Below, piece after piece: positions 158 through 48,837 of a DNA stretch of 64,000 bases. The notes beneath the pieces were generated by a model. That model was not told the origin of the DNA. It worked only from the letters and a program-made list of their open reading frames with translations, and ran no database searches. Position 1 is the stretch's first letter. Every line of letters starts with the position of its first letter. Source of the DNA: Alkalispirochaeta americana. Lineage in GTDB: Bacteria; Spirochaetota; Spirochaetia; DSM-27196; Alkalispirochaetaceae. The stretch spans positions 62,001 through 126,000 of the forward strand of contig NZ_FTMS01000006.1 of assembly GCF_900156105.1 (NCBI RefSeq). Reading direction: 5' to 3'. The position numbers and the translations under genes were made by a program.

Positions 158-1657
158 TCACCGCCCTGCCTGGACACGAGCGGCTGTGACCTCCCCACTG
201 ATCATGCTCATGGTTGTACCCGTTCCGGGAAGCGTGTACTGCCCGGCATAGTAAAGATTTGAAACCTTTTTTGACCTGTTTTTCAACCTGAACCAGGCTG
301 TCTGAAAGAGGGTCTGTCCCAATCCGAAGGCGTTCCCCTTAAAGGCGTGATAATCCGCAGAGAACTCCTTCAGGGACATGCTTTCCTGAAACATCAGGTG
401 CTTCCGCAAGGGCCGCCCCGTTTTTTCCTCCATCCGGTCCAGGGCGTGTTCCAGGTAAATCCGACGCTGTTCCGGCGTGTCCTCGAGCCCGGCAGCAACC
501 GGTATCAGGAGAAAAAGCGCCTCTTTTCCCGGAGGAGCGCAGGTTTTGTCGGTCCGGGAGGGCAGATGCAGGTAGAAGAGCGGTTTTTTGATCCACCGGG
601 GCTTCTCATAGACCGCATGAAAATGCTCTTCCCAGGGGGCATCAAAGAAAAAGGTATGGTGCTGAAACTCCTCCAGGGGACGATCGAAGGCAAGGTAATA
701 GTTCACCACAGCCGGCGCCAGCGAGAGGCGATCCCACCGTCCGGGAGAGACCGACCGGTACTCCGGAGGCAGAAGTTGTTGCTCCACATGGTGGTAATCG
801 GCGTTGGCCACCACCAGGTCGAACTCCTCCTGATAGGTCTCGCCCGCCTGGGTTCGAACCGAGGCCGCCCGGACACGCCGGCCCTCCAGGGAGAGCTCCG
901 TGACTTCGTGGCCCAGGCGAAACCGTACGCCCAGATCCTCACAAACCTGTTGCATCGCCCGGGCCACAGCGGAAAACCCTCCCTGGGGATACCAGGTTCC
1001 CAGGGAGAAATCAACGTGGTTCATGAGTGTGTACACCGCCGGGGTTTTCCCCGCCCGGCTTCCCAGAAAGACCACGGGAAACTCCAGAATCTTCTGGAGC
1101 GCCCCATGGCGCACCTGGCGGCGAACCCGGGAGCCGTAACTCTGGAAGAGGTTTAACCGGGGCAAATGGGGAATTACCCGGGGGTGGAGAAAGTCGGCGA
1201 TAGAATAATAGTTGCGGAAGACAAAGGAGTCCATGGCCAGGCGATACTTGGCCGCGCAATCCTCCAGATACCGGCTCAGACGGCCTCCGCTTCCCGGCTC
1301 GAGTCGCTCGAAGACATCCCGGGCTCCCTGGGGGTCCGCCGGGAGATCCAGATAGTATTCTCCCTCTTCGCCCAGGGGGGAATCAAAGTAGACCCGATAG
1401 CTGGGATCAACCCGGTGAATCTCGTAGAACTCTTCCCGGGAGCGACCCATTTCCCGAAACCATCGATCGTGTTCCTGGGGCATCCAGTACCAGCTGGGCC
1501 CCATATCAAAGCGGAAGCCCTCCCGGGAAAACTCTCGCGCCCGGCCGCCAACCCAGCTGTTCTTCTCGAGAACCGTTACATCGTAGCCATCCCGGGCAAG
1601 GAACGCCGCTGCTGAAATTCCCCCAAACCCCGCGCCAACCACCAACACGCGTTTCAT
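158..1657 (-). CDS. crtI: CrtI-family phytoene desaturase / carotenoid oxidoreductase
   Basis: A 499-aa FAD-dependent amine-oxidase-fold enzyme of carotenoid synthesis. The N-terminus is a Rossmann dinucleotide-binding motif (VVGAGFGGISAA), followed by the LEKNSWVGGRAREF segment typical of CrtI. The C-terminus carries the family FAD signature (LYYAGQYTLPGTGTTMS). Length fits CrtI (about 490-510 aa). The frame stays open upstream for 54 more codons, but ATG at 1657 is preceded by GGAGG at correct spacing and places the FAD motif at the N-terminus. It lies 34 bp behind fhs, so the two are probably co-transcribed. No crtB or crtE is in the window, so substrate and desaturation number cannot be told; a neurosporene/phytoene desaturase or a related isomerase is possible. 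Confidence 0.88.
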   Translation of the reverse strand: MKRVLVVGAGFGGISAAAFLARDGYDVTVLEKNSWVGGRAREFSREGFRFDMGPSWYWMPQEHDRWFREMGRSREEFYEIHRVDPSYRVYFDSPLGEEGEYYLDLPADPQGARDVFERLEPGSGGRLSRYLEDCAAKYRLAMDSFVFRNYYSIADFLHPRVIPHLPRLNLFQSYGSRVRRQVRHGALQKILEFPVVFLGSRAGKTPAVYTLMNHVDFSLGTWYPQGGFSAVARAMQQVCEDLGVRFRLGHEVTELSLEGRRVRAASVRTQAGETYQEEFDLVVANADYHHVEQQLLPPEYRSVSPGRWDRLSLAPAVVNYYLAFDRPLEEFQHHTFFFDAPWEEHFHAVYEKPRWIKKPLFYLHLPSRTDKTCAPPGKEALFLLIPVAAGLEDTPEQRRIYLEHALDRMEEKTGRPLRKHLMFQESMSLKEFSADYHAFKGNAFGLGQTLFQTAWFRLKNRSKKVSNLYYAGQYTLPGTGTTMSMISGEVTAARVQAGR

Positions 1658-30149: not shown

Positions 30150-30390
30150 TTAACTCGTTCGGCGTGAGTCGTGCACATGCGTCGATCCGATCAAGATCGA
30201 TTTGAGCTTGTTGTGCGTGTGTGGCGGAGTGATACCGGCGCGTACCAGAATCGCTTTCAGACTCTTTTCCGCAGCTTGCTGCGCGTGAAAACCAATCACC
30301 TCGATTGGTTGGGGGAGCATATCCAGTGGTAGTAGTCTGCCTCACCAAAATCAGCCTCAGCCTCGCCCAGAGAATGCGTCAGCGGGTATC
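30150..30390 (-). pseudogene. HEPN-domain protein remnant
   Basis: From 30320 to 30150 the minus strand reads MLPQPIEVIGFHAQQAAEKS followed by LKAILVRAGITPPHTH, the classic HEPN helix seen in MNT/HEPN toxin pairs. Upstream, in another frame, is LGEAEADFGEADYY, which fits the preceding HEPN helix; a frameshift near 30325 separates them. The C-terminus is cut after about 55 residues. The piece is too short for the usual ORF cut-offs. No partner nucleotidyltransferase is adjacent. Confidence 0.6.
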
Positions 30391-30395
30391 GCCGG

Positions 30396-30482
30396 ATCGT
30401 GCTCCTCTGCAATCTCAGTGACCGACATCCCTTTACGAAAGAACGCCGATCGAATACGTTGTTGTTGAGCCATTGTGAGCAT
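30396..30482 (-). pseudogene. IS21-family istA N-terminal remnant
   Basis: Starting at ATG 30482 the minus strand reads MLTMAQQQRIRSAFFRKGMS then VTEIAEEHD, the N-terminal HTH of an IS21-type IstA transposase. After this the homology stops and HEPN-like sequence begins, so only about 29 codons remain. Confidence 0.45.
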
Positions 30483-30599
30483 CCTTGATGGTGCCTCCCT
30501 TGCTGGTTGGTGGTTCTTCCACCAAGGGCAGGCGACCCATCCGAGGTCTTACAATGGCTCTTGCAATCCCGGGGAAATCCGCGATGCAAGAGCGGGGGG

Positions 30600-30790
30600 T
30601 GGGAGAGAATCTCCTGGATAGACCGATCAAGGTTCTGCTCCGCCACAACCGCACGGTAGGCATCGGTTGAGATAGCGAAACCGGACGGCACCGGCAGGCC
30701 CGCGCGAAGCATCTCGCCAAGATTAACGGCCTTTCCCCCGACGAGGTCAATACAGTCGCTGGTGAGCGAATCGAGCACAATTGTTCGGGG
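30600..30790 (-). pseudogene. Phosphoenolpyruvate synthase/PPDK N-terminal remnant
   Basis: The minus strand reads DLVGGKAVNLGEMLRAGLPV then PSGFAISTDAYRAVVA, the start of the PEP/pyruvate-binding (PPDK_N) domain. The frame is lost after about 60 residues and nothing of the catalytic histidine or PEP-binding domains follows. A fragment brought in and truncated within the island. Confidence 0.65.
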
Positions 30791-30964
30791 TCTGGCGTGA
30801 GTGCACTGGCGCTGTTCGTTCCGTCCACGGGGTTCCTTTCTTCTCCACAACACAGGGTTAACCAACAATGCCAGACCCGCGAAGCGGGGGGTACAAACCG
30901 TGACAGCCGGGGGTGTCCGGATCCAGAGGACCATCATACTCAGTTCACTTTGTAATCTTCCCTT

Positions 30965-32605
30965 CTATTCCACGCTGTAGTCCGGGGCGACCTCTGCGGC
31001 CTCTTCGTGCTGCCCCTGCTGATACACCGGTATGTACCCCGACAGGTAGCGGCTGAGCCGGGAGTCGCAAGCATAGACGAAGGTCCCCCGAATACCTCTC
31101 GTCATGAGGGTTTTGTAAATATTCAGAATGTAGTCTACCATCCGGGAGGGGGAAAGGGATTTATGCTTGCCATGCCGGTCCTTGTAACGCTCGGGATGGT
31201 AGCGCAACAGACCATTCTCCATGGTAATCTCCGGGCCGATGATGACCCCGGCATAATTCAGGTCATAACCTTGAACAGTGTGGATGCAGCCTACCTCTCT
31301 ATGAGCATTGGGGCTGTTGATCCAGTTCTTCGTGGTGGAATTCCATCTGAGCCGGCAACCCTCTATTTCTATATCGCAAACATCGGGATTGTCTCGACTG
31401 ATCCAGTCCCAGGCGAAGCCTGCTGCCAACCGGCAGAGGCCATGCTGCTCATTCAGACCCTGAATATCTCTGATCATGGGCAGCAAACGGGTGTACAGGC
31501 GCAGGTCGTAGCCCGGAAAACTCTCGGTCTGCGGATTGCGCTGGCGCAGAATGGCATCGATGTAACCGGTATAACGGTTGCCGGCCAGAACCCTCATCTG
31601 CGACTGCAGCACAAACTGTCGCGATTTCGGAGCCAGCGAGCTAAAACGGTTAGCTGCAACATCAGAGGGTTTTACGCTCTGCTTACTATCATAGAGCAAC
31701 ACCGCGTGGCGGGTTTTCTGCAGAATCCAGTCTAATTGATCGGTTTGCCCCGGGTCGAGGCCGAGCTTTCGGGCAGCAGAGTCAAAGGCCGCGTAGCTTG
31801 CCAGATTCTGTCGACGGGTCAGGCGGTGGGCCTCATCCACAATCAAGAGGTCAAACTTCTGCTCGTCCTTTACCACCCCGTTGGGGCCCAGCACCATGTT
31901 CTTTTTGAGCCCCGAGATGCTTCCAAAGATTTGTCGCACCGTTTCGCGCAGCGAGGTCTGTGGCAGCACTATACCAATCTTGAGTCCCGCCGTAGCATCT
32001 CCCGACAGCAGATACTTTACCAGATAGATCGCCAGAATAGTCTTGCCCGAACCCGGCTCACCCTTGATGATGCTGAGTGATTCCGGGTTGGAGGTAATGA
32101 TTCCCTCCAGCTCGGCAACGATTTCAGCCTGATCATCGGTCAGAGCCTTGTAGGGAGAGTACTTAAACAGATCACTGTTCTGAATATCATCTATGCTGTG
32201 ACGGACAATATTATGGCTCTTGAGTTCATCCCAGATCTCCCGAAACAGATCCTCGTAGTACTGGCGGTTATAGTAGTTGTGATTGCGTAATCCCCGATTG
32301 CTGTTCTGCAAGGTGTAGGTGCCATCGCCGGAAATATACTCGATAAGCGAGGCCTCAAGATCCAGGGTAGCAGACTTGTTAAACTTTTCATCCTTGATCA
32401 GGAAGATCCTGCTGAAGATTCGCCGTTCGCGGTTGGCCAAATGATTGCGGATGCGCTGCAGAGCACTGGTTGTCTCGCCAATATAAGCCTGCTTGCGGTT
32501 TTCCAGAATATAGATGATCGGCCAGTTGCGATACTGTTGCTCATTCTTAAGCGTCTCCAGGGTTTCAGGGGCAAAATTGTAACTCACAACCCTGTTCGTC
32601 GTCAT
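30965..32605 (-). CDS. GIY-YIG nuclease + DUF2075-type DNA/RNA helicase
   Basis: A 546-aa protein. N-terminal GIY-YIG-like nuclease: PIIYILENRKQAYIGETTSA (residues about 29-48, YIL and YIGET as the GIY and YIG elements) and a conserved LIEYIS. Then a superfamily 1-like helicase domain (DUF2075): Walker A KGEPGSGKT (about residue 189), Walker B LLIVDEAHRL (about 252), QSQMR (about 340) and a late VGCIHTVQGYDLNYAGVIIG (about residue 443). It overlaps the MazG-like gene by 4 bp. DUF2075 proteins are common in defence islands; its role here is inferred from that and from the setting. Confidence 0.85.
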   Translation of the reverse strand: MTTNRVVSYNFAPETLETLKNEQQYRNWPIIYILENRKQAYIGETTSALQRIRNHLANRERRIFSRIFLIKDEKFNKSATLDLEASLIEYISGDGTYTLQNSNRGLRNHNYYNRQYYEDLFREIWDELKSHNIVRHSIDDIQNSDLFKYSPYKALTDDQAEIVAELEGIITSNPESLSIIKGEPGSGKTILAIYLVKYLLSGDATAGLKIGIVLPQTSLRETVRQIFGSISGLKKNMVLGPNGVVKDEQKFDLLIVDEAHRLTRRQNLASYAAFDSAARKLGLDPGQTDQLDWILQKTRHAVLLYDSKQSVKPSDVAANRFSSLAPKSRQFVLQSQMRVLAGNRYTGYIDAILRQRNPQTESFPGYDLRLYTRLLPMIRDIQGLNEQHGLCRLAAGFAWDWISRDNPDVCDIEIEGCRLRWNSTTKNWINSPNAHREVGCIHTVQGYDLNYAGVIIGPEITMENGLLRYHPERYKDRHGKHKSLSPSRMVDYILNIYKTLMTRGIRGTFVYACDSRLSRYLSGYIPVYQQGQHEEAAEVAPDYSVE

Positions 32606-33532: not shown

Positions 33533-33850
33533 TCAATCTGAGGGTGTTTGTCGCCGTCTACTCCCTCCTTTCAGTTCGAATATCCAGGGCGTGTGGGCAA
33601 GACGGTCCATTATCGCATCGGCGATCGTCGGTTCTCCGATGATCTCATGCCACGCACCGATGGGAACTTGGCCGGTGATGATCGTCCCGGCTGTGTTGTA
33701 GCGGTCGTCCAGGAGTTCAAGCAGCGACAGGCGGTCATCTGAGTTCAGGGGAGTGAGCCCGAAGTCATCGATGATGAGTAATCCGGTCTTGGAGAAGCGT
33801 TGGAAAATGCTGTCTATCTTACCGTTCGGGATGACGGGGTTGGTCACCAT
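33533..33850 (-). pseudogene. istB: IS21-family IstB ATPase remnant
   Basis: C-terminal part of the IstB helper ATPase. It reads GLLIIDDFGLTPLNSDDRLS (Walker B), DDRYNTAGTIITGQVPIGAW (sensor 1), and IIGEPTIADAIMDRLAHT, ending with LKGGSRRR. The P-loop half is missing; homology stops near 33840. It is in the opposite relative order to the istA piece at 30.4 kb, so the two come from different IS21 copies or were rearranged. Confidence 0.75.
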
Positions 33851-33871
33851 GATAACTTTGATTCTCCCCAA

Positions 33872-34015: not shown

Positions 34016-34786
34016 TTACCTCTGGAGAAGACTCCCTTCAAGATCTTCCAGGGACTGAAAAACGAAATCGGTCACCACCAGGAGCTCGCGTTCCGACGAT
34101 TGCAGAGGTTTACCCTGGTAGCGCCAGAAGTTGAAATACACTCGCTCCCGCCGGGCATCCGGCACAACAGAGCTGTGTACGGTAAAGCGCCCGGCCACCA
34201 GATGCTCCTCCGGCGGATAATCAGAATGGCCGTGCCAGCTCAGGAAATCCACCCTTCCTGGCTGCCACACAAAACGATGCGTTGTGGCAAGCCCCTCCTG
34301 GATCAAGTTAAACCGATGCCGGTTCTCTTCCTGCGCCGACGGCTGCACGGAAAATTGCATGTTGGTCATCTCGATGTTACCCCATCGGGAAAACTCGATG
34401 TCGATCTCTCGATGGTACTGGTGATTGCTCGGAAGTTCGAAGGTGAAGAAACCAAATACCGCCTGTGGATCAAGATGATCTATCCGTCCAAAAAACCGTG
34501 CCTCATAAACGCCGTAACCAAGGGGCCGGCGTGACCGGACTTCCGTGGCATGGTTCCCGAGGGTCATATTCAGGTGGCCGCTCTGGTCTACCCAGATGTC
34601 CTCGGGAGCTGATGAGAAGGTATTGCCACCCGGAGCGGTGGGCTTAGCGCTTGCCCGAACGGTCCACTCGTATCCGGCAAATGTGATTGTACGCGGTTGC
34701 GCTACCGGCGCTGGTATGGCCACCGTTCCAAATACCACAATCACCACCCCCGTCAGAACTGTCTGCCCCAGAGCTCTTGGATCCAT
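34016..34786 (-). CDS. GH16-like secreted glycanase
   Basis: A 256-aa exported protein with an N-terminal membrane/signal segment (residues 8-28). The beta-sandwich core is GH16-like: the active-site strand is REIDIEFSRWG (E-I-D-I-E, residues about 126-136), with MNMTLGNH-type and YGVYEARFFGR strands before it. GH16 enzymes cut beta-1,3/1,4-glucans, galactans and similar polysaccharides. Upstream ATG at 34816 would add 10 residues. It diverges from the GGDEF-like gene and probably trims or releases the polymer made by the synthase. Confidence 0.72.
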   Translation of the reverse strand: MDPRALGQTVLTGVVIVVFGTVAIPAPVAQPRTITFAGYEWTVRASAKPTAPGGNTFSSAPEDIWVDQSGHLNMTLGNHATEVRSRRPLGYGVYEARFFGRIDHLDPQAVFGFFTFELPSNHQYHREIDIEFSRWGNIEMTNMQFSVQPSAQEENRHRFNLIQEGLATTHRFVWQPGRVDFLSWHGHSDYPPEEHLVAGRFTVHSSVVPDARRERVYFNFWRYQGKPLQSSERELLVVTDFVFQSLEDLEGSLLQR

Positions 34787-34794
34787 CTTCTCAT

Positions 34795-34824
34795 TATACA
34801 AAAAAACGCTCCTCATGGTACAAT
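34795..34824. promoter_or_regulatory. Divergent promoter elements between GH16 and GGDEF-like genes
   Basis: TATAAT on the minus strand (34800-34795) faces the GH16 gene, and TACAAT on the plus strand (34819-34824) faces the GGDEF-like gene. Fewer than 60 bp separate the two coding regions, so their expression is likely linked. No ribosome-binding site precedes either ATG clearly. Confidence 0.4.
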
Positions 34825-34836
34825 CAACACTGTTTT

Positions 34837-35721
34837 ATGAATGATATACAGTGTCCCACAACGGGCCTGCCCGCAGGCTCTGCACTGGAAAAAGCAATCC
34901 AGAATCTGGTTGAACACAACACCAGCAACGGGTGGATTCTGTTTATCCATGTCGACCGAATCGAATATATCAACACCTTCTACACCCGCAAGGAAGGAGA
35001 CGAGACGCTCTACCGAATAGCACAAATCCTCTCCCGAATTGAATCGTCACATCTCTACCGCTTTGCCGGGCCGATCTTCGTCATGACTCTGACAGGAAAC
35101 ACGGCGAAGGCCCTCGACGTGGCAGAACAACTCCGCCGGGCGGTGGGAGACTCTACAGAACTGATCGAAAACCTCACCGTCTCTATCGGTCTGGTGGCCG
35201 CCGATGAGGCTGAATCAGCGATGAAGATCCAGGACATTGCCCTGGATCGCCTGAAAACTGCCCGGAGGCGGGGGGGGAATACCATATGCGCTATCTCGCA
35301 TTCTGACGAGGACTCGGAATACTCGTCCAAGACGGTGTTGCTGGTAGACCCGGAGTCGGACATGCTCACCGTGCTCATTCGGGAAATCGAGAACAAGGGG
35401 TTTTCGGTGATTACCGCCCAAGATGGGTTGGAGGCGTTACAGGTTGTCTCCCAGATTTCGCCGGATGTTATAATATCGGAACTTACCGTGCCGAAGCTGG
35501 GCGGATTTGAACTTCGAGCCCGCCTGAGACAGTCAGAGGAACTTGGGGCGATCCCCTTCGTACTTCTCTCTCACCGGTGGAACGACGAATTGATTCGGGA
35601 AGCATCGTCTCTGCGGATTCTTCACTACCACCAGAAACCCCTTTCGGCAGTGCACATAGCCGAACTGGTAAAAAATCTCGCTGTCGGACGATTTCGGGAA
35701 GAGGAGTCGGGGTGCGTCTGA
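34837..35721 (+). CDS. Degenerate GGDEF plus receiver-domain protein
   Basis: A 294-aa regulator. Residues about 1-145 have the GGDEF-domain fold (FIHVDRIEYINTFYTRKEGD, VSIGLVAADE), but the catalytic GGDEF motif reads AGPIF, so diguanylate cyclase activity is unlikely. Residues about 165-285 are a receiver domain (VLLVDPES, then PDVIISELTVPKLGG) in which the phospho-acceptor aspartate is glutamate. Conserved Ser and Lys (LLSH, QKPL) remain. It overlaps the synthase gene by 10 bp. Likely a c-di-GMP-binding or purely structural control subunit (inference). Confidence 0.75.
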   Translation: MNDIQCPTTGLPAGSALEKAIQNLVEHNTSNGWILFIHVDRIEYINTFYTRKEGDETLYRIAQILSRIESSHLYRFAGPIFVMTLTGNTAKALDVAEQLRRAVGDSTELIENLTVSIGLVAADEAESAMKIQDIALDRLKTARRRGGNTICAISHSDEDSEYSSKTVLLVDPESDMLTVLIREIENKGFSVITAQDGLEALQVVSQISPDVIISELTVPKLGGFELRARLRQSEELGAIPFVLLSHRWNDELIREASSLRILHYHQKPLSAVHIAELVKNLAVGRFREEESGCV

Positions 35722-38700
35722 TAGGTACCGAAATAATGGTGGTCGAGCTGGTCCTGGCAACTTTCTTCTTCGTCCTGGCATCGTGCGCCGTGATCATTAT
35801 GGCAGGGGCCGGCATGGTGCGGCGTCGCCGCGAGCGCGCTGTTGCACGGTGCAGGGAGTTTCTCGCCGGGCCTTCGGTAAATGACATGACCGTTCAAGAA
35901 ATCGCCCGATTTATCGAACGCCGGCAAATACCCTTTCTGCGTGCCTACGTGGAGATATCCAGCCATGTCCAGTTCTCCGACGATGCCCGACGGAAGCTGG
36001 AATCAGCCCTGTTGCAGGCGCGTTCCGATATGCACCTGATCCGTGAACTGAACCGGCGATCCCCATTCCGCCGAAGCCGAGCGGCACTGTTCCTGGCGTA
36101 TATACCCTCCACGCCGGGGGCTCGTGCTCTGGACCACGCCTTGAGGACCGAACGATTCTCTCGGGTCAAGATCCGGATCGTTTTCGCCATCGTCCGTCGT
36201 CGATATCTGCACTCGATACCAACAATTCTGGACAGTTTATCTGGCGCATCCCCTGAGTACCAGAAACAGGTCACAGGTCTGCTAATGGACTTGGGATCCG
36301 ATCTGGTGCAAATACTTCCGGTGTTGCGGGACCGAAAGGATCCTGAGCTTCAGATGGTGTTCGTAGGGGTGGCGGAGCAGGTTCCCTCCGACACGATGCG
36401 TACGTATCTGGAGACCCTGGTAGACCAAGCCACACAGGATGTGGCTCGAGAAGCGTTTCGAGTGTTGTTGAATTATTTTTCGGACACGGTGGATCCAACG
36501 CTGTACTTTAAAAACAAGGATACATTTTTCGTTAACCTGGCGGTAGAGGCCCTGGGGCGGTTCCCGTCAGAGGAAAGCGTCGAGGCAGTCCTTCCGTACC
36601 TGGCAGATGCAAAGATCCGCAAAAGCGCGGTGGCAGCCCTGATGACGATGATCGGTTCTGTGCCACGACTGATGCCGTTCCTTGTAACGCACTTCCGGAC
36701 CACCCAAAACCGGGGAATCCAGGAAGGCCTCGCCGAGGTTTTGTCATCCCGTTCCGAGTACCTGCTCAACACTGCCCGTCGCGAGCGGTGGCCCGATGCC
36801 GAGCACGTGCTGAGCATGATACTCCAGACCCATAAAGCAACGGGAGTGCTGGCCTTCCTCAACCGCAATACTGATCAGGAACAGGAACGCGAGATCTGCC
36901 AGCTGATCGGAGCCACGGTACGAGAAGACCCGTGGCTGCGGAAGGAGTTTGGTCTGTACGGAAAGCCTTCCGTGATACGAGAGTTAGGAATCGAAAAACA
37001 GGAAATTGCGTCTCAACGGGGGGAGAGGCTCGGCGAGAATCCCAGTGTACGGATTCTTGCGACGGTGGTCGGGATGACTGTCCTGTTGCCTCCCCTGATT
37101 TTCACAGCCCTGAGGATATTCGGAGGGCGCGTTACGGACTGGAGGGATCTCTTCCCGGCGTATCTGATCAGGTTCGAAGAGCTCTTTATCTTCTATGCCG
37201 TCGCCATCAACTCGGTGTATCTCTTGCTGCTGCTGGCAGCAGTATGGTCCATCCTGGAATCCACCCGATTATGGGAGACCCGCCCTCCTGAACTGCTCTT
37301 CAAACCGGGAATACTCCCTTCGGTAAGCATCATCGCTCCAGCATACAACGAGGAAGCAACAATTGTGGAAAGCGTGAGAGCGTTGCTAAACCTCAACTAT
37401 CCCGACTATGAAGTGATCGTCGTCAACGATGGGTCCCGGGATGGCACGCTCCAGCGCTTGGTGAGCACCTTCGAACTGGACAGGATGAGTATGCCCCTCC
37501 ACGATCACCTGAAAACCCAATCGGTCCGGGGAGTTTACAAAAACCCCCGGCTACCCGGGCTGGTGGTGCTCGATAAATCGAACGGTGGAAAGGCTGATTC
37601 TCTCAACGCAGGTATTAACGCGTCACGGAACGCGTACTATGCTGCGATCGACGCTGATTCTCTCCTTGAGCCACAGGCGCTATTGCACCTGGCGGTGGAG
37701 ACACTGGATTCGGAGATTCCCGTGGTAGCCACTGGAGGAAACGTCCTGCCCATAAACGGGTGCCTGGTGGAGCGAGGACACATCGACCAGATACGAATGC
37801 CCCGGAACTGGCTTGCGAGCTTCCAGATGGTGGAATATGTCAGAGCGTTCATGACCGGCAGGACCGGGTGGGCGCGTATCAACTCGCTTTTGATAATATC
37901 TGGTGCCTTTGGCCTGTTCAATACCTCCAAAGTAATCGATGTGAAGGGATACCTCACCTCAAGCGAACGACTGCTGAAAGACACGGTAGCGGAAGACATG
38001 GAACTGGTGGTGCGTCTCTCACGGGAGCTTCGGGATCAGGGCCAGGAATGCGCGATTCGCTACGCCCCCGGCGCAAATTGCTGGACCGAGGTGCCCGAGA
38101 CGGTTCGGATACTGGGGTCCCAACGAGATCGGTGGCAACGGGGTCTGATTGATGTACTTTTTTTTCACGCTGCCATGGCCTTGAGGCGACGATTCGGCCG
38201 TCCCGGCATGATCGGGATGCCCTATCATTATGTGTTTGAGCTTGTTGGCCCGTGGATCGAAATCCAGGGATACCTGTTTCTTCTGTTGGGGCTGGTGCTA
38301 GGCGTGCTACCAGCGAGGCTCGTTGTCTCGGTGCTGGTGGCGTCGGTCGGCCTGGGAATGATAGTCTCTCTCTTGTCGGTTCAGCTGGCGGAGTGGGCAC
38401 ACAAAATGTTTCGCCGACGCGATCGCGTGCAGATCTTGCTATTTGCGATGCTCGAGAATTTCGGGTATCGCCAACTCGCGAGTGTGTTTCGACTGAGTGG
38501 CTATATCAGCGTCCTGCGCCAGCGAACGGGCTGGGGTACCATGAAACACGGCGCGGATTCCTCAAAAAGGCGGGGTAGAATGAGTGTAACACAGAGCAAA
38601 ACAAAAATCTGGCTGGTACCGGCCATCACCCTGTTCCTGGTGATCAACGGTGTACTGCAAGTAGACGCCCAGGCCTTCCGGAATATTGCGGCGTTTTCCG

Positions 38701-39023
38701 TGGAGAACTATTTCGACGACACCTTCGCCACACGCCTGGAAAATACCTTTATCGCCCCCCTGATCGAAGATCGCCTGCAGATGCAGGTAAAGGTGAGCAA
38801 CCAAACCGACAACATTCTCGAGGACACCCGCTCTCTCTCGATGGTGCACACCGGACCGATTATCCTCTTTACTCCGCATCTGTACGGGCTCGCAGTATAC
38901 GGCGCCGGCTTTCGCGATACCGGATCAATAGTGCACGAAATAGACCTGCAGCTGCATTACGAAACGGCTGGGTACCGCATCGGCGCGGGCACCCGGGGGC
39001 AATGGGACCGGACGAAGACGTAG
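35712..39023 (+). CDS. HEAT-repeat / processive GT2 polysaccharide synthase (ORF continues into barrel)
   Basis: GTG at 35712 has GAGGAG 5 bp upstream. A membrane helix (about residues 10-30) is followed by HEAT-like repeats (about 60-430), two helices (447-470, 491-515) and a GT2 domain: SVSIIAPAYNEE (536), NDGSRDGT (572), AIDADS (646), VAEDMELV (759), GSQRDRWQRG (801). These are the D, DxD, ED and QxxRW residues of processive enzymes such as cellulose or hyaluronan synthases. C-terminal helices follow to about residue 893. No PilZ domain is seen. The synthase should end near 38580, but the frame stays open through the next gene's signal peptide to 39023, giving a topologically odd 1103-aa product. 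A 1-nt indel before 38582, where TGA overlaps ATG, would restore two genes. Confidence 0.8.
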   Translation: MRLIGTEIMVVELVLATFFFVLASCAVIIMAGAGMVRRRRERAVARCREFLAGPSVNDMTVQEIARFIERRQIPFLRAYVEISSHVQFSDDARRKLESALLQARSDMHLIRELNRRSPFRRSRAALFLAYIPSTPGARALDHALRTERFSRVKIRIVFAIVRRRYLHSIPTILDSLSGASPEYQKQVTGLLMDLGSDLVQILPVLRDRKDPELQMVFVGVAEQVPSDTMRTYLETLVDQATQDVAREAFRVLLNYFSDTVDPTLYFKNKDTFFVNLAVEALGRFPSEESVEAVLPYLADAKIRKSAVAALMTMIGSVPRLMPFLVTHFRTTQNRGIQEGLAEVLSSRSEYLLNTARRERWPDAEHVLSMILQTHKATGVLAFLNRNTDQEQEREICQLIGATVREDPWLRKEFGLYGKPSVIRELGIEKQEIASQRGERLGENPSVRILATVVGMTVLLPPLIFTALRIFGGRVTDWRDLFPAYLIRFEELFIFYAVAINSVYLLLLLAAVWSILESTRLWETRPPELLFKPGILPSVSIIAPAYNEEATIVESVRALLNLNYPDYEVIVVNDGSRDGTLQRLVSTFELDRMSMPLHDHLKTQSVRGVYKNPRLPGLVVLDKSNGGKADSLNAGINASRNAYYAAIDADSLLEPQALLHLAVETLDSEIPVVATGGNVLPINGCLVERGHIDQIRMPRNWLASFQMVEYVRAFMTGRTGWARINSLLIISGAFGLFNTSKVIDVKGYLTSSERLLKDTVAEDMELVVRLSRELRDQGQECAIRYAPGANCWTEVPETVRILGSQRDRWQRGLIDVLFFHAAMALRRRFGRPGMIGMPYHYVFELVGPWIEIQGYLFLLLGLVLGVLPARLVVSVLVASVGLGMIVSLLSVQLAEWAHKMFRRRDRVQILLFAMLENFGYRQLASVFRLSGYISVLRQRTGWGTMKHGADSSKRRGRMSVTQSKTKIWLVPAITLFLVINGVLQVDAQAFRNIAAFSVENYFDDTFATRLENTFIAPLIEDRLQMQVKVSNQTDNILEDTRSLSMVHTGPIILFTPHLYGLAVYGAGFRDTGSIVHEIDLQLHYETAGYRIGAGTRGQWDRTKT

Positions 39024-39370
39024 CTTACGTCGTACCCTCTCTCGGTGGCCGGATACAACTATCACAGTGGATCGGTCTGCAGGCAACGTACTTTATGGGC
39101 TTCAACAACGATGGAGATATCAGTAACTCTATCTGGATGGAGGGAGATTACGCGGTCAATCCGGTGGTTACCGTAAAACTCGGCGGGAGCGCCGAGCTCG
39201 GCGACGACGTGGAGCTCCCGGACGGATCGGATTTGACCTACAACCTTATCTCCGGGATCAGGGTCGCCTTCACAGATTCCGTATCAGCACGGTACCAGCT
39301 CGATTATATCGGACGAGAGGACCAGGACGATGGAGTGCGCAGTTTCTTTTTCGTGGACTGGCGGTTCTGA
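38580..39370 (+). pseudogene. Outer-membrane beta-barrel of the synthase locus (frameshifted)
   Basis: Starts at ATG 38580: MSVTQSKTKIWLVPAITLFL is a signal peptide ending near VDAQAF, then beta strands. The frame breaks at about 38990-39002, in a run of five Gs, and resumes at 39002 with MGPDEDVAYVVPSLGGRI, ending SFFFVDWRF, a terminal F typical of barrels. One inserted base restores a continuous protein of about 263 aa. It probably forms the export pore or a secretin-like partner for the polymer (inference). It converges on the lipoprotein gene with a 4-bp gap. Confidence 0.65.
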
Positions 39371-45048: not shown

Positions 45049-48000
45049 CTATGAGTCCGGCGGTGCCTCAGAAGGCGGCAGATATCGGGCCAGGGTTGCC
45101 TTGAGTTTTTCCGATTCTATCGGCTTGGTCAGAAAGTCCTCCATGCCGGCAGCAAGGCAGTTGTCCCGCTCCTCTTTGGAGGCCCCCGCAGTGAGGGCAA
45201 CAACGGGGACCTGTCGGCCCGTTGCGTCCTGGAGGGCGCGGATCTTCCGGGTGGCCTCCAGTCCATCCTGGATCGGCATCTGCACGTCCATCAGAACCAG
45301 GTCCGGCGAAGACTGCCGGTATTGTGTAACCGCCTCTACCCCGTTGGTCGCCTCCAGGAGCGTTGCCCCCGGGCAGAGCTTCTCCAGGATCGTCCTGATC
45401 ATCAGGAGATTCATCTCCACATCTTCTGCGATCAGAATGGTCCTGCCCTGGTAGTGCCCGCTGGCAGTCTCCACCTCCCCGGAGTCATCCTCTGGTCGGG
45501 AGAGGCTTTGGGGCTCCGGGTCCCGGAGGTGGCTCAGATACTCAAAGAGATCCCCCCTCTTCACCGGTTTGCTCAGGCGAAAGCGCACCCCCAAATCCTC
45601 GCATTCCCGATGGAAGGCAGCATCTTCCGTGGAGGAGTGCAGCAGGATCACCGGTTGCTTGTCGGGGCCAAGGTTGAGGCGCTCCCGAATCATGCGGAGG
45701 GTCTCCAGCCCGTCGACACGGGGCATGTGGTAGTCGCAGATAATTACATCGAAGGGTTCTGAAGTCTCGAGAACCTTCAGGGATGACAATCCATTATCAC
45801 AGGATTCGCTGACGATCCCCCAGGTTGCGAGGATTTCCCCGAGGATGAGGCGATTATGGGCGTTGTCGTCGATGATGAGACAGCGCTTGACCCGGGCAAT
45901 GGATCTTCTGTCCGGTTCCTTTCCATCCTCGGTGTCGGTGATAATATCAAAGGAGAAGGTGCTTCCCCCACCTTCCCTGCTATCGATCCGGATCCTGCTG
46001 TCCATCTTTTGGGCGATCAGATCAGAGATGATCAGGCCCAGGCCGGTGCCGCCAAACTCGCGGGTGGTGGAGCTGTCAGCCTGCGAGAAGGCCTTAAAAA
46101 GTTTTGCCTGCTGCTCCTCTGCAATCCCGATGCCGGTATCGCGAACGGAGAAGGAGAGGATTCCCTTTGCCTCCGCCCCCAGAGCGGTATACTCCGCTCT
46201 GAGCTCCACCTCGCCCTGCCTCGTGAATTTAACGGCGTTTCCCAGGAGGTTTGTCAGAATCTGCTTCAGGCGAACGGGATCGGTCACGGCAAAACGCGGC
46301 ATCCCGGGATCGATATGGAGGAGAAGCTCCAACCCTTTCTCTGCTGCACCGTATTTCACAAGGTCGACACTCTGTTCAAGAAGCGAGATCATGTCGGTCT
46401 GAACCATCTCGAGATGCAGCATCCCCGCCTCGATCTTCGAGAAATCGAGGATGTCGTTGATAATACCGAGCAAGCTGTGTCCAGCCACGTTGGCGTTGTT
46501 GACGTAGTCCGCCTGCACCGGCGAGAGCGGCGTATCCCGAAGCAGATCGGTGAAGCCGATAACGCCATTCAGCGGCGTTCGTATCTCGTGGCTCATGTTT
46601 GCCAGAAATTCGCTCTTGGCAGCAGAAGCCTGACGGGCCTGGGTTGCCATCTCCCTGGCCCGGGCGGTTGCTTCTTCCAGATCCCGGTTTGCCTGAAGCA
46701 GTTCCCGGCGAGACTGCAGCTTGAGAAGAATCTCGCCGACCATATTCGCCAGCACAGCAAGGCTGGAAATCTCGCGTTCGCCCCAGAGGTTTTTCCGCGT
46801 AACCCCATCGCACCCCACGAACCCCCAGATGTTCTCTCCCCTCACAATTGGCGCGGCCATAAGGGATCGAACGTTCCGGGCTGTCAGTTCTCTCTTCCCG
46901 GCCTCCGGTTCATCGGGAAGGGCCTCCACATCGGGGATATGCACAGCTTTTCCCGAGAGGATTTGCCCCTTGAGCCACGCAAGCGATGCCGCCGACAGGG
47001 CCTGTCCGTCTTCACTCCGGGGCGCGACCTCCCCGGAAGACCACTGGTGGATATTGCCCGTGCCATCGTCAGCGTCAGTGCCATCGCCACCGCCATCGTC
47101 AGCGCCATCGTCAGCGCCATCGTCAGCGCCATCGTCAGCGTCAGCGTCAGCAAGGGAAAACGTAACCAGATAACTCCGATCGGCGTGAAAAGCACCGCCA
47201 ATGGTCTCAAGCATGTGGCGGATATCGTCGTCAAAACGCTCCTCCGTGGTTGTAACAAACCGCGAGGAGATACTGGCAACACAGAGCTGGAAGGCCAGAC
47301 TGTTTTTCAGCTGTTCCTCAGCAACCTTGCGGGACCGGATATCCAGAAAGCTCACGATACAGCCGATCTGCTTCCTTTTCCGGGGCACGGCACTGTGGCG
47401 GGCCCTGCTCCGGTGCGCGATGCTCCGGGAGAACCGGTTTCGGTACAGGGGCGTGACAAGCAGATCCACAGGGAAACCTTCACCACTCTTGTGCCAGAGC
47501 CACTCCTCGCCCCTTCTCTCCAGGCCGTCAGTACTGGTCCGGCAAACCGGGCAGTCCTCCCAGGGGTAGGGTGAACCGTCGGGACAGCTATGGTGGAAGA
47601 GGCTGTGCTGATCCTCTCCAAGGACCTCATCTTTCTCGTAGCCGAGCATGCCCAGGGCGGTCTGGTTGATGAAGGTGCACCGGCCGCGATGATCCACACC
47701 GAAGACGCCCTCGCCCAGACCGGCCAGCAGGCTGGCCTGAAACTCGGCCTGCCGGGCCTTGACCCTGCGAATAACCAGCACCACCGAACCGGCTACCACG
47801 AGAAACACCAGGAGGATCGCCAGTACAATCAGCTCTCTTCTCCAGCGCTGCCAGGCGTCCACCAGGGTGAACTCGGGCACCTGATCAAAGGGGGGCTGCC
47901 GCAGTGTCCGGAGCAGCTCCTCCACCGGCCGGTAATCGGCGGGGATGGTGAAACCGTGAATCCCCAGTTGCCGGCTGACTTCACCGGCGTGGGGCAGGGC

Positions 48001-48837
48001 GAGCACCGCCGCCGCCACCTGCAGGGCCATTTCCTCATCGGAGTCGGAGAGAACCACAAAGGGCCACTCGGGATAGAGCGGGGTGGACAGTACCTGGGGG
48101 AACCCGGGGTGTGACACCGGGTTGAGAAGACGGACCTCGTCCTCTTGCAGGAGGCCCTCCCGCACCAGCGATTCCAGAACCCCGCTCCGCACAAAGGCCG
48201 CATCGGCCTCGCCTCTCAGGGCCGTCTCGATAGTTGCAGCGTGGGGCATGCCGGTGAAGACCAGATCCAGGTGGTTTTTGGCTGCCACTCCGTGGTTACG
48301 CAACTCAAAGGCCTGCGCCAGATACCCCCCAAGCGAGTTGGGGCTCACGGCCGCCACAGTTCTTCCCCGCAGATCCCCTGCGGTCCGGATATCATCCCTC
48401 CCGGCCGGCACCACCATGACGCCCCCGAATCCCCGAATCGGCACGCCCTCGACCTCCTGGATCAGGCTGGCCAGGGGCGCGGAAAAGCGCTCCCGATGTC
48501 GCAGTATGATGTAGTGCCCCGGATTTGTCAGAACATAATCCAGTTCACCTTGCTGGATAGCCCGCTCCAGATCGGGGTAGTTGAAGGCCCGGATTTCCAG
48601 ATTGAGCCCCTCCACGGTGGCGTTGAGATAGTCCACCAGGGGCTGCCACTGCGCCTCCGTCACGGCGACGGACCGGAAAGCCAGAACCCCGAGCGTGTGG
48701 GGCCGCGCCCGGACCACCGAGGGCAAGACCACCAGGGGCAGGAGAAGCAGCGCGAGAATACTGAGAACCTTCCAGCTTGCCTTGATTGCTATCCCTCCCG
48801 TTGCCAGAAGAATAGATAACCCTGTAGCGAAACACAA
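45049..48837 (-). CDS. Hybrid sensor histidine kinase with PhnD-like sensor
   Basis: A 1262-aa protein. An N-terminal signal/membrane helix (residues about 20-42), then a phosphonate-binding-type periplasmic domain (about 48-325, [30 protein letters not shown]), a membrane helix (about 340-363), a PAS domain with CxxC (DCPVCRTS), a GAF-like domain (about 545-720), HisKA with [14 protein letters not shown], HATPase ([10 protein letters not shown]) and two receivers ([22 protein letters not shown]), both keeping the acceptor aspartate. The GAF-like part contains an in-frame 12-bp repeat coding DDGA units. It likely senses a small ligand in the periplasm, such as phosphonate or similar. Confidence 0.88.
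47092..47139. repeat. Four perfect 12-bp tandem repeats in a coding region
   Basis: GCCATCGTCAGC is repeated four times without mismatch, coding an acidic Asp-Asp-Gly-Ala run on the minus strand. Flanked by related 6-bp units. Confidence 0.9.

Follow-up and report, generated by a model that had tools for sequence, protein, structure and literature searches.

A locus in the genome of Alkalispirochaeta americana places genes for a GH16-like glycanase, a regulator with GGDEF and receiver domains, a synthase that combines HEAT repeats with a GT2 domain, and an outer membrane barrel side by side. It raises the question of whether these genes constitute a synthase-dependent exopolysaccharide system, as a preliminary description had proposed, and, if so, what the HEAT repeats contribute and how the synthase would be controlled. 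Most of the synthase-dependent systems known so far respond to c-di-GMP, which acts via PilZ, GGDEF, or partner subunits. Our analysis makes it reasonably probable that the locus is a synthase-dependent exopolysaccharide system of the Spirochaetota and derives, by fusion and re-wiring, from a more widespread receiver-HEAT-GT2 module, and that control would be exerted via a receiver-HEAT contact and not via PilZ.

Organization of the locus

The window, the whole 64,000-nucleotide stretch of DNA analyzed here, is part of contig 6 of a 3.3-Mb genome in 65 contigs. The features of the locus are given in Table 1. The plus-strand operon, in the order regulator, synthase, barrel, starts approximately 20 bases from the longest possible GH16 start. 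Pfam detected GH16, Response_reg, GGDEF, HEAT_2, and GT2 families. As had been claimed, PilZ was not found in the Pfam scan of the locus proteins, the synthase included, and an Rfam search around the locus returned no match.

Table 1. Features of the exopolysaccharide locus (window coordinates; residues are those of the encoded protein)
Feature	Position	Strand	Remarks	Basis
GH16 family glycanase, signal peptide	34016..34816	-	likely start Met ~34786	Pfam and profile of relatives
Regulator, pseudo-GGDEF and pseudo-receiver	34837..35721	+		Pfam
Regulator, pseudo-GGDEF	residues 13-146, ~34873-35274		AGPIF in the place of GGDEF, without I-site	
Regulator, pseudo-receiver	residues 167-278, ~35335-35670		Glu at the phospho-acceptor Asp position	
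HEAT-GT2 synthase	35736..38578	+	alternative GTG start near 35712 possible	
Synthase, first TM	residues 5-23		N-out/C-in	
Synthase, HEAT domain	residues ~45-420, 35868-36995			
Synthase, further TMs	residues ~440-458, 483-501, 836-854, 862-880			
Synthase, GT2 core	residues 475-931, 37158-38528			
Frame break, synthase C terminus	38540..38552	+	from frame 0 (GTMK) to frame 2 (RRGFLKKAG-stop)	
Outer membrane beta-barrel, signal peptide and C-terminal Phe	38580..39370	+	split: 38580-39023 (frame 0), 39002-39370 (frame 2)	
G5 run where the barrel frame is lost	38996..39000	+	complete relatives all open across	

The four-gene set is real and far above chance. All four genes occur together again in relatives L020, L021, L023, and L026. 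In L022 and L029, where the contigs stop within the synthase, the first three are found (the Spirochaetota relatives named in this comparison are all metagenome bins). The view of the four adjacent genes as one unit holds for the conserved set, but the GH16 gene is divergent on the minus strand and the barrel is not a single open reading frame (ORF).

Several other genes of the window were annotated in passing. On the minus strand, a truncated PPDK_N fragment (30296-30937) is probably a pseudogene, and the GH16 gene is adjoined by what is left of an IS21 IstB ATP-binding protein, a C-terminal part (33533-33871). Between them, a minus-strand gene (30965-32605) encodes a fusion of a GIY-YIG domain and a Schlafen group 3 type helicase, weakly similar to phage defense models, and is adjoined by a MazG-like gene. 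A hybrid histidine kinase of 1,262 residues (45049-48837, minus strand) carries two receivers and an N-terminal phosphonate-type periplasmic binding domain.

Frame breaks in the A. americana genome

The ORF at 35577-39023 is stop-free from the synthase through into the barrel. Synthases of relatives finish in a nearly invariant R-G-F tail; in the window, the corresponding tail RRGFLKKAG and its TAG stop (38576-38578) lie in frame 2, while the preceding GWGTMK lies in frame 0 (to ~38543). A whole-genome profile search of the same genome likewise recovered the barrel halves in two frames. In complete close relatives the barrel is one ORF of approximately 265 to 280 residues, although some of these ORFs are listed longer owing to upstream starts. 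The barrel and the synthase end in the window are frameshifted, through either recent mutation or assembly error; as the displaced parts remain open, both breaks are recent or artifacts. Because of these frameshifts, the anatomy of the locus was read from relatives.

Two independent frame breaks within a single operon, with truncated PPDK and IS21 genes a few kilobases upstream, could also mean that the frameshifts are real and that the system is a decaying remnant, switched off in this genome. However, the remainder of the operon is open, and the out-of-frame barrel half is open as far as the native stop, so the lesions would be recent or artifacts. Furthermore, the frame of the barrel is lost through a change of one base within a run of G, as is typical of sequencing error. 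No internal stops occurred in the other matches from this genome. Decay is therefore rather unlikely, and it would be compatible with our main reading as applied to the relatives.

Structure and topology of the synthase

The synthase was recognized by the Pfam families HEAT_2 (E = 2e-8) and Glycos_transf_2 (E = 1e-19). The D, DxD, ED, and QRxRW motifs described earlier are present (QRDRW in the window) and invariant among the 24 sequences compared. An AlphaFold2 model built on 24 aligned synthases (pLDDT 87.8, pTM 0.85) predicts the GT2 half to be a membrane-embedded, processive-type fold resembling hyaluronan and cellulose synthases. Its structural matches, at VIA Z 24-27, were hyaluronan synthases, cellulose synthase, and a mannosyltransferase from an archaeon, among them the Chlorella virus hyaluronan synthase (Z 26.1, 389 residues) and E. 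coli BcsA (Z 24.3), with the mannosyltransferase PcManGT as the best match. In the Foldseek and VIA searches with the synthase model, the HEAT half was unmatched among the matches listed, which were occupied by the GT2 domain.

The TPR scaffold of synthase-dependent systems is periplasmic, and it had been suggested that the HEAT repeats within the synthase could take over this role. The predicted topology contradicts this. The N-terminal TM is followed by an arginine-rich cytosolic flank (6 K/R among 15 residues), and the next two helices return the chain, so that HEAT and GT2 would lie on the same, cytosolic side. The HEAT domain is accordingly predicted to be cytosolic, behind an N-out/C-in TM. 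In addition, relatives carry HEAT alongside TPR barrels, and a barrel protein of the TPR or YaiO kind is present in most bacterial clusters with a separate HEAT gene. A HEAT domain that replaces the periplasmic TPR scaffold was rejected on these two grounds. Overall, the synthase-dependent exopolysaccharide reading stands on the processive GT2 fold, the gene order, and the co-occurring hydrolase, but not with the role originally given to HEAT.

Conservation and the wider receiver-HEAT-GT2 module

In whole-genome searches, 16 of 61 genomes, that of the window counted, contained the synthase, as did, at E < 1e-60, 27 of 393 genomes sampled across the phylum. The proposed gene order was confirmed as well: among loci with flanking sequence, almost every one has the regulator directly 5' of the synthase, and GH16 is divergent from the regulator or beside the synthase in many of them.

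Distant Spirochaetota (L076 to L080) encode HEAT and GT2 as two proteins in neighboring genes, preceded by a gene for a TPR protein, which is a TPR-barrel wherever that gene is complete; a stand-alone receiver is present at L076, L078, and L079. HEAT and GT2 are also separate at L070, but this may be a secondary split since the sister locus L067 is fused, and the argument made here rests on L076 to L080 and other phyla, with L070 left aside. Related arrangements occur in plasmid records of the Alphaproteobacteria Erythrobacter and Mesorhizobium (receiver, TPR or YaiO protein, HEAT, GT2), of Deinococcus (TPR protein, HEAT, GT2), and of three Halobacteria (receiver, HEAT, GT2), and those of Emticicia show a related cluster with a YaiO barrel. 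In Paenibacillus, an unannotated TM-bearing protein occupies the HEAT position and is a candidate HEAT protein. Behind one archaeal receiver-HEAT-GT2 cluster (L107:6004-10610) come genes for a sugar-phosphate nucleotidyltransferase and GlmS, a hint of an amino-sugar polymer.

Profiles of the fused and separate HEAT proteins aligned over 336 columns (hhalign, 98.8%, E = 9e-17), and the orientation of the N-terminal TM is identical in both. On this evidence, the synthase of the window unites in one protein two subunits that adjacent genes encode elsewhere, and this fusion argues that HEAT and GT2 work together physically. The separate clusters differ from the window in several respects. Their HEAT and GT2 are homologous to those of the window and mostly adjoin a receiver, which is stand-alone and retains the Asp in nearly all cases (9 of 10 examined). 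In the window, by contrast, HEAT and GT2 are fused, the receiver is fused to a pseudo-GGDEF and carries Glu, a GH16 is added, and the barrel is without TPR.

A conserved protein of approximately 1,030 to 1,090 residues, probably membrane anchored, was also observed beside HEAT-GT2 (L056:12062-15286, L063:8970-12200, L109:1779-4880, and others). It occurs in several spirochetes and Paenibacillus, with ~30% identity over the full length. Parts of it look like a glycosidase-type barrel by eye; it had no Pfam, NCBIfam, or PDB match and was not found in the genome of the window.

Relationship to known synthase systems

The nearest curated family of the GT2 is PgaC/IcaA (TIGR03937, E = 1.7e-32). The locus shares with PgaABCD a processive GT2, an outer membrane barrel, and a secreted hydrolase. 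The Pga system employs PgaD, PgaB, and the TPR-barrel PgaA. PgaC lacks HEAT, whereas the window encodes GH16, HEAT, a pseudo-GGDEF/receiver protein, and a barrel without TPR, and an assignment to PgaC/IcaA was rejected at 112.9 bits against a cutoff of 422.3. The likeness to BcsA/B/C/Z lies in the overall synthase fold and the general plan of synthase, hydrolase, and barrel. However, PilZ and BcsB are missing, the hydrolase is GH16 instead of GH8, and the barrel lacks TPR. BcsA was rejected as an assignment given 29 bits against the TIGR03030 cutoff of 699, the absence of PilZ, and a separate position in the tree.

Two mixed-linkage glucan synthases, Sinorhizobium BgsA and Romboutsia RiGT2, are processive GT2s like that of the window, and the lichenase-like GH16 is the one hint that the polymer here could be a 1,3-1,4-beta-glucan too. 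RiGT2 has a PilZ domain and BgsA pairs with BgsB; to our knowledge, no HEAT, receiver, or GH16 partner has been described for either. In a GT2 tree with long reference branches, in which BgsA stood for the mixed-linkage synthases, the module members clustered together (97/96), with E. coli PgaC, BcsA, and YaiP and a pSymB ORF that is presumably the S. meliloti BgsA falling outside. An assignment to Bgs was likewise rejected, since BgsA joined BcsA at 100/100, apart from the module, again on long branches. The system is a well-conserved variant among synthase-dependent exopolysaccharide systems and apparently undescribed in the searchable literature, where no description of the module (HEAT with GT2, YaiO, or exopolysaccharide) was found, most subscription papers being outside its reach.

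The regulator and the question of c-di-GMP control

Pfam recognized the GGDEF and receiver domains of the regulator at E-values of 1e-12 and 1e-13, respectively. The earlier view that this protein is degenerate was borne out: the GG(D/E)EF motif was present in 0 of 28 aligned regulators, an RxxD I-site in 1, and at the receiver acceptor position 24 have Glu and 4 have Asp. By motif, the regulator is not an active cyclase. Neither the regulator nor the synthase has an evident c-di-GMP site, although a non-canonical one may exist. The sole regulator with RxxD at the I-site position is L023:2096-2989, where c-di-GMP binding may persist.

These data bear on a conventional c-di-GMP system, whether of the PNAG, the cellulose, or the mixed-linkage glucan type, where c-di-GMP would be made or sensed for the synthase by the GGDEF protein. 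The GGDEF fold is recognizable in the regulator, one relative has the RxxD, and the genome holds 20 other GGDEF domains, nearly all well scoring, and 3 PilZ proteins. Furthermore, BgsA was previously shown to bind c-di-GMP without PilZ (PMC10374906). However, the GGDEF motif is lost in 28 of 28 regulators, the I-site is absent in 27 of 28, and the synthase has no PilZ domain. Against the PgaC and CelA models, the scores were 113 and 29 bits where 422 and 699 are required, and the GT2s of the module group apart from BgsA, BcsA, and PgaC. Conventional c-di-GMP control is thus improbable.

Most regulators outside the clade of the window have an ODP domain at the N terminus (PF19583, with E-values as low as 1.7e-58). 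It is absent from the regulator of the window and its clade. The ODP domains of the relatives are homologous to solved oxygen-binding di-iron proteins (6qrq, E = 2.7e-30), and their HQDPD motif is retained in some lineages and lost in others. Fusions of ODP, degenerate GGDEF, and receiver lie directly 5' of a polysaccharide synthase at L062:5322-7328 and L060:4294-6030 and likewise at L053, L055, L056, L058, and L059. In Treponema denticola, ODP is an oxygen sensor acting in chemotaxis (PMC7666581). The HQDPD-bearing domain is what it has in common with many of the relatives' regulators; in contrast, it serves chemotaxis and not polysaccharide synthesis, and the regulator of the window has no ODP. 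A link from oxygen to polysaccharide is possible through the ODP regulators.

The GH16 glycanase, the barrel, and the polymer

The glycanase matched PF00722 at an E-value of 2.9e-4, slightly under the cutoff, in keeping with the GH16-like assignment in the preliminary description, which had missed its strand and divergent orientation. A profile of 15 GH16 relatives found lichenase (1,3-1,4-beta-glucanase) structures as nearest (6e-11), and the catalytic ExDxE is invariant in the relatives (E137, D139, E141). No other GH16 was found in the genome of the window. The protein, with its catalytic residues in place, is predicted to be the secreted polymer hydrolase of the system. The GH16 profile was detected in 22 of 393 genomes, 19 of which also encode the synthase, where 1.5 would be expected (P = 3e-23); by genus, 15 were shared (P = 4e-13). 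The first of these P values was calculated from 27 synthase and 22 GH16 genomes among 393, and both ignore shared ancestry. In 8 of the 19 genomes, GH16 and synthase are on separate contigs or far apart, and the co-occurrence is therefore not mere linkage. In one spirochete family, a polysaccharide deacetylase (PF01522) adjoins GH16 (L056:5501-6436 and L062:10894-11781).

The outer membrane barrel was upheld by the protein of relative L020, modeled as a 14-stranded barrel (pLDDT 87) with a signal peptide and a terminal Phe. Its fold resembles FadL and OmpG (Z ~20-23), which are channels and not polysaccharide exporters. TPR, the periplasmic scaffold, was not found in the barrel of the window's lineage but is present in relatives L053, L054, and L076 to L079. 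A whole-genome search with the barrel profile recovered the family in 5 of 393 genomes, near the lineage of the window, and barrel co-occurrence is for this reason unusable as a test. Other lineages have TPR-YaiO barrels (L053: TIGR04390, E = 4e-10), other candidate outer membrane proteins adjoin the cluster at L067 and L070, and in some lineages no barrel was found near the synthase. Barrel and synthase are not strictly coupled, and the simplest reading would be that the exit pore has been exchanged between lineages.

The FadL-/OmpG-like barrel conserved only near this lineage, the archaeal relatives without outer membrane or barrel, and the top structural match to PcManGT could indicate that the product of the GT2 is a periplasmic or lipid-linked glycan, with a general porin or uptake channel in the operon by chance, but the invariant QRxRW, ED, and DxD motifs, the hyaluronan-synthase-like fold with membrane helices, the TPR-YaiO export-type barrels of distant members, and the dedicated GH16 leave this with little likelihood.

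As for the secreted polymer that we favor, the lichenase-like GH16 suggests a 1,3/1,4-beta-glucan. The similarity to PgaC, the deacetylase neighbor in some relatives, and glmS by one archaeal cluster suggest an amino-sugar polymer instead. The hyaluronan- and cellulose-like folds leave the sugar unfixed.

Proposed mechanism and implications

In the proposed mechanism, the GT2 would polymerize a beta-linked polymer and translocate it across the inner membrane, the barrel would be its way out, and the secreted GH16 would trim or release it, as BcsZ, PgaB, or ExoK do elsewhere. The HEAT domain would be a docking surface where the receiver or pseudo-receiver switches the synthase, replacing PilZ and c-di-GMP; gene order and fusion point to such a contact. 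Where relatives carry ODP, oxygen or redox may provide the input. Ancestrally, a phosphorylated receiver likely acted on HEAT-GT2, and the spirochetes may have swapped phosphorylation for another input.

More tentatively, the module could represent a PilZ- and c-di-GMP-independent synthase class across Bacteria and Archaea, in which a receiver would switch a processive GT2 directly via a cytosolic HEAT adaptor. In the Spirochaetota, the adaptor would be fused to the synthase. The receiver would be a pseudo-receiver that follows a pseudo-GGDEF and, in many species, also a di-iron sensor that binds oxygen, by which oxygen or redox could gate secretion post-translationally. If this is true, a receiver with a cytosolic HEAT subunit would be another switch for polymer secretion, in bacteria as well as archaea. 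Such a family would also offer a handle on the extracellular polysaccharide of free-living spirochetes, and the conserved GH16 provides a route to the identity of the polymer by digestion.
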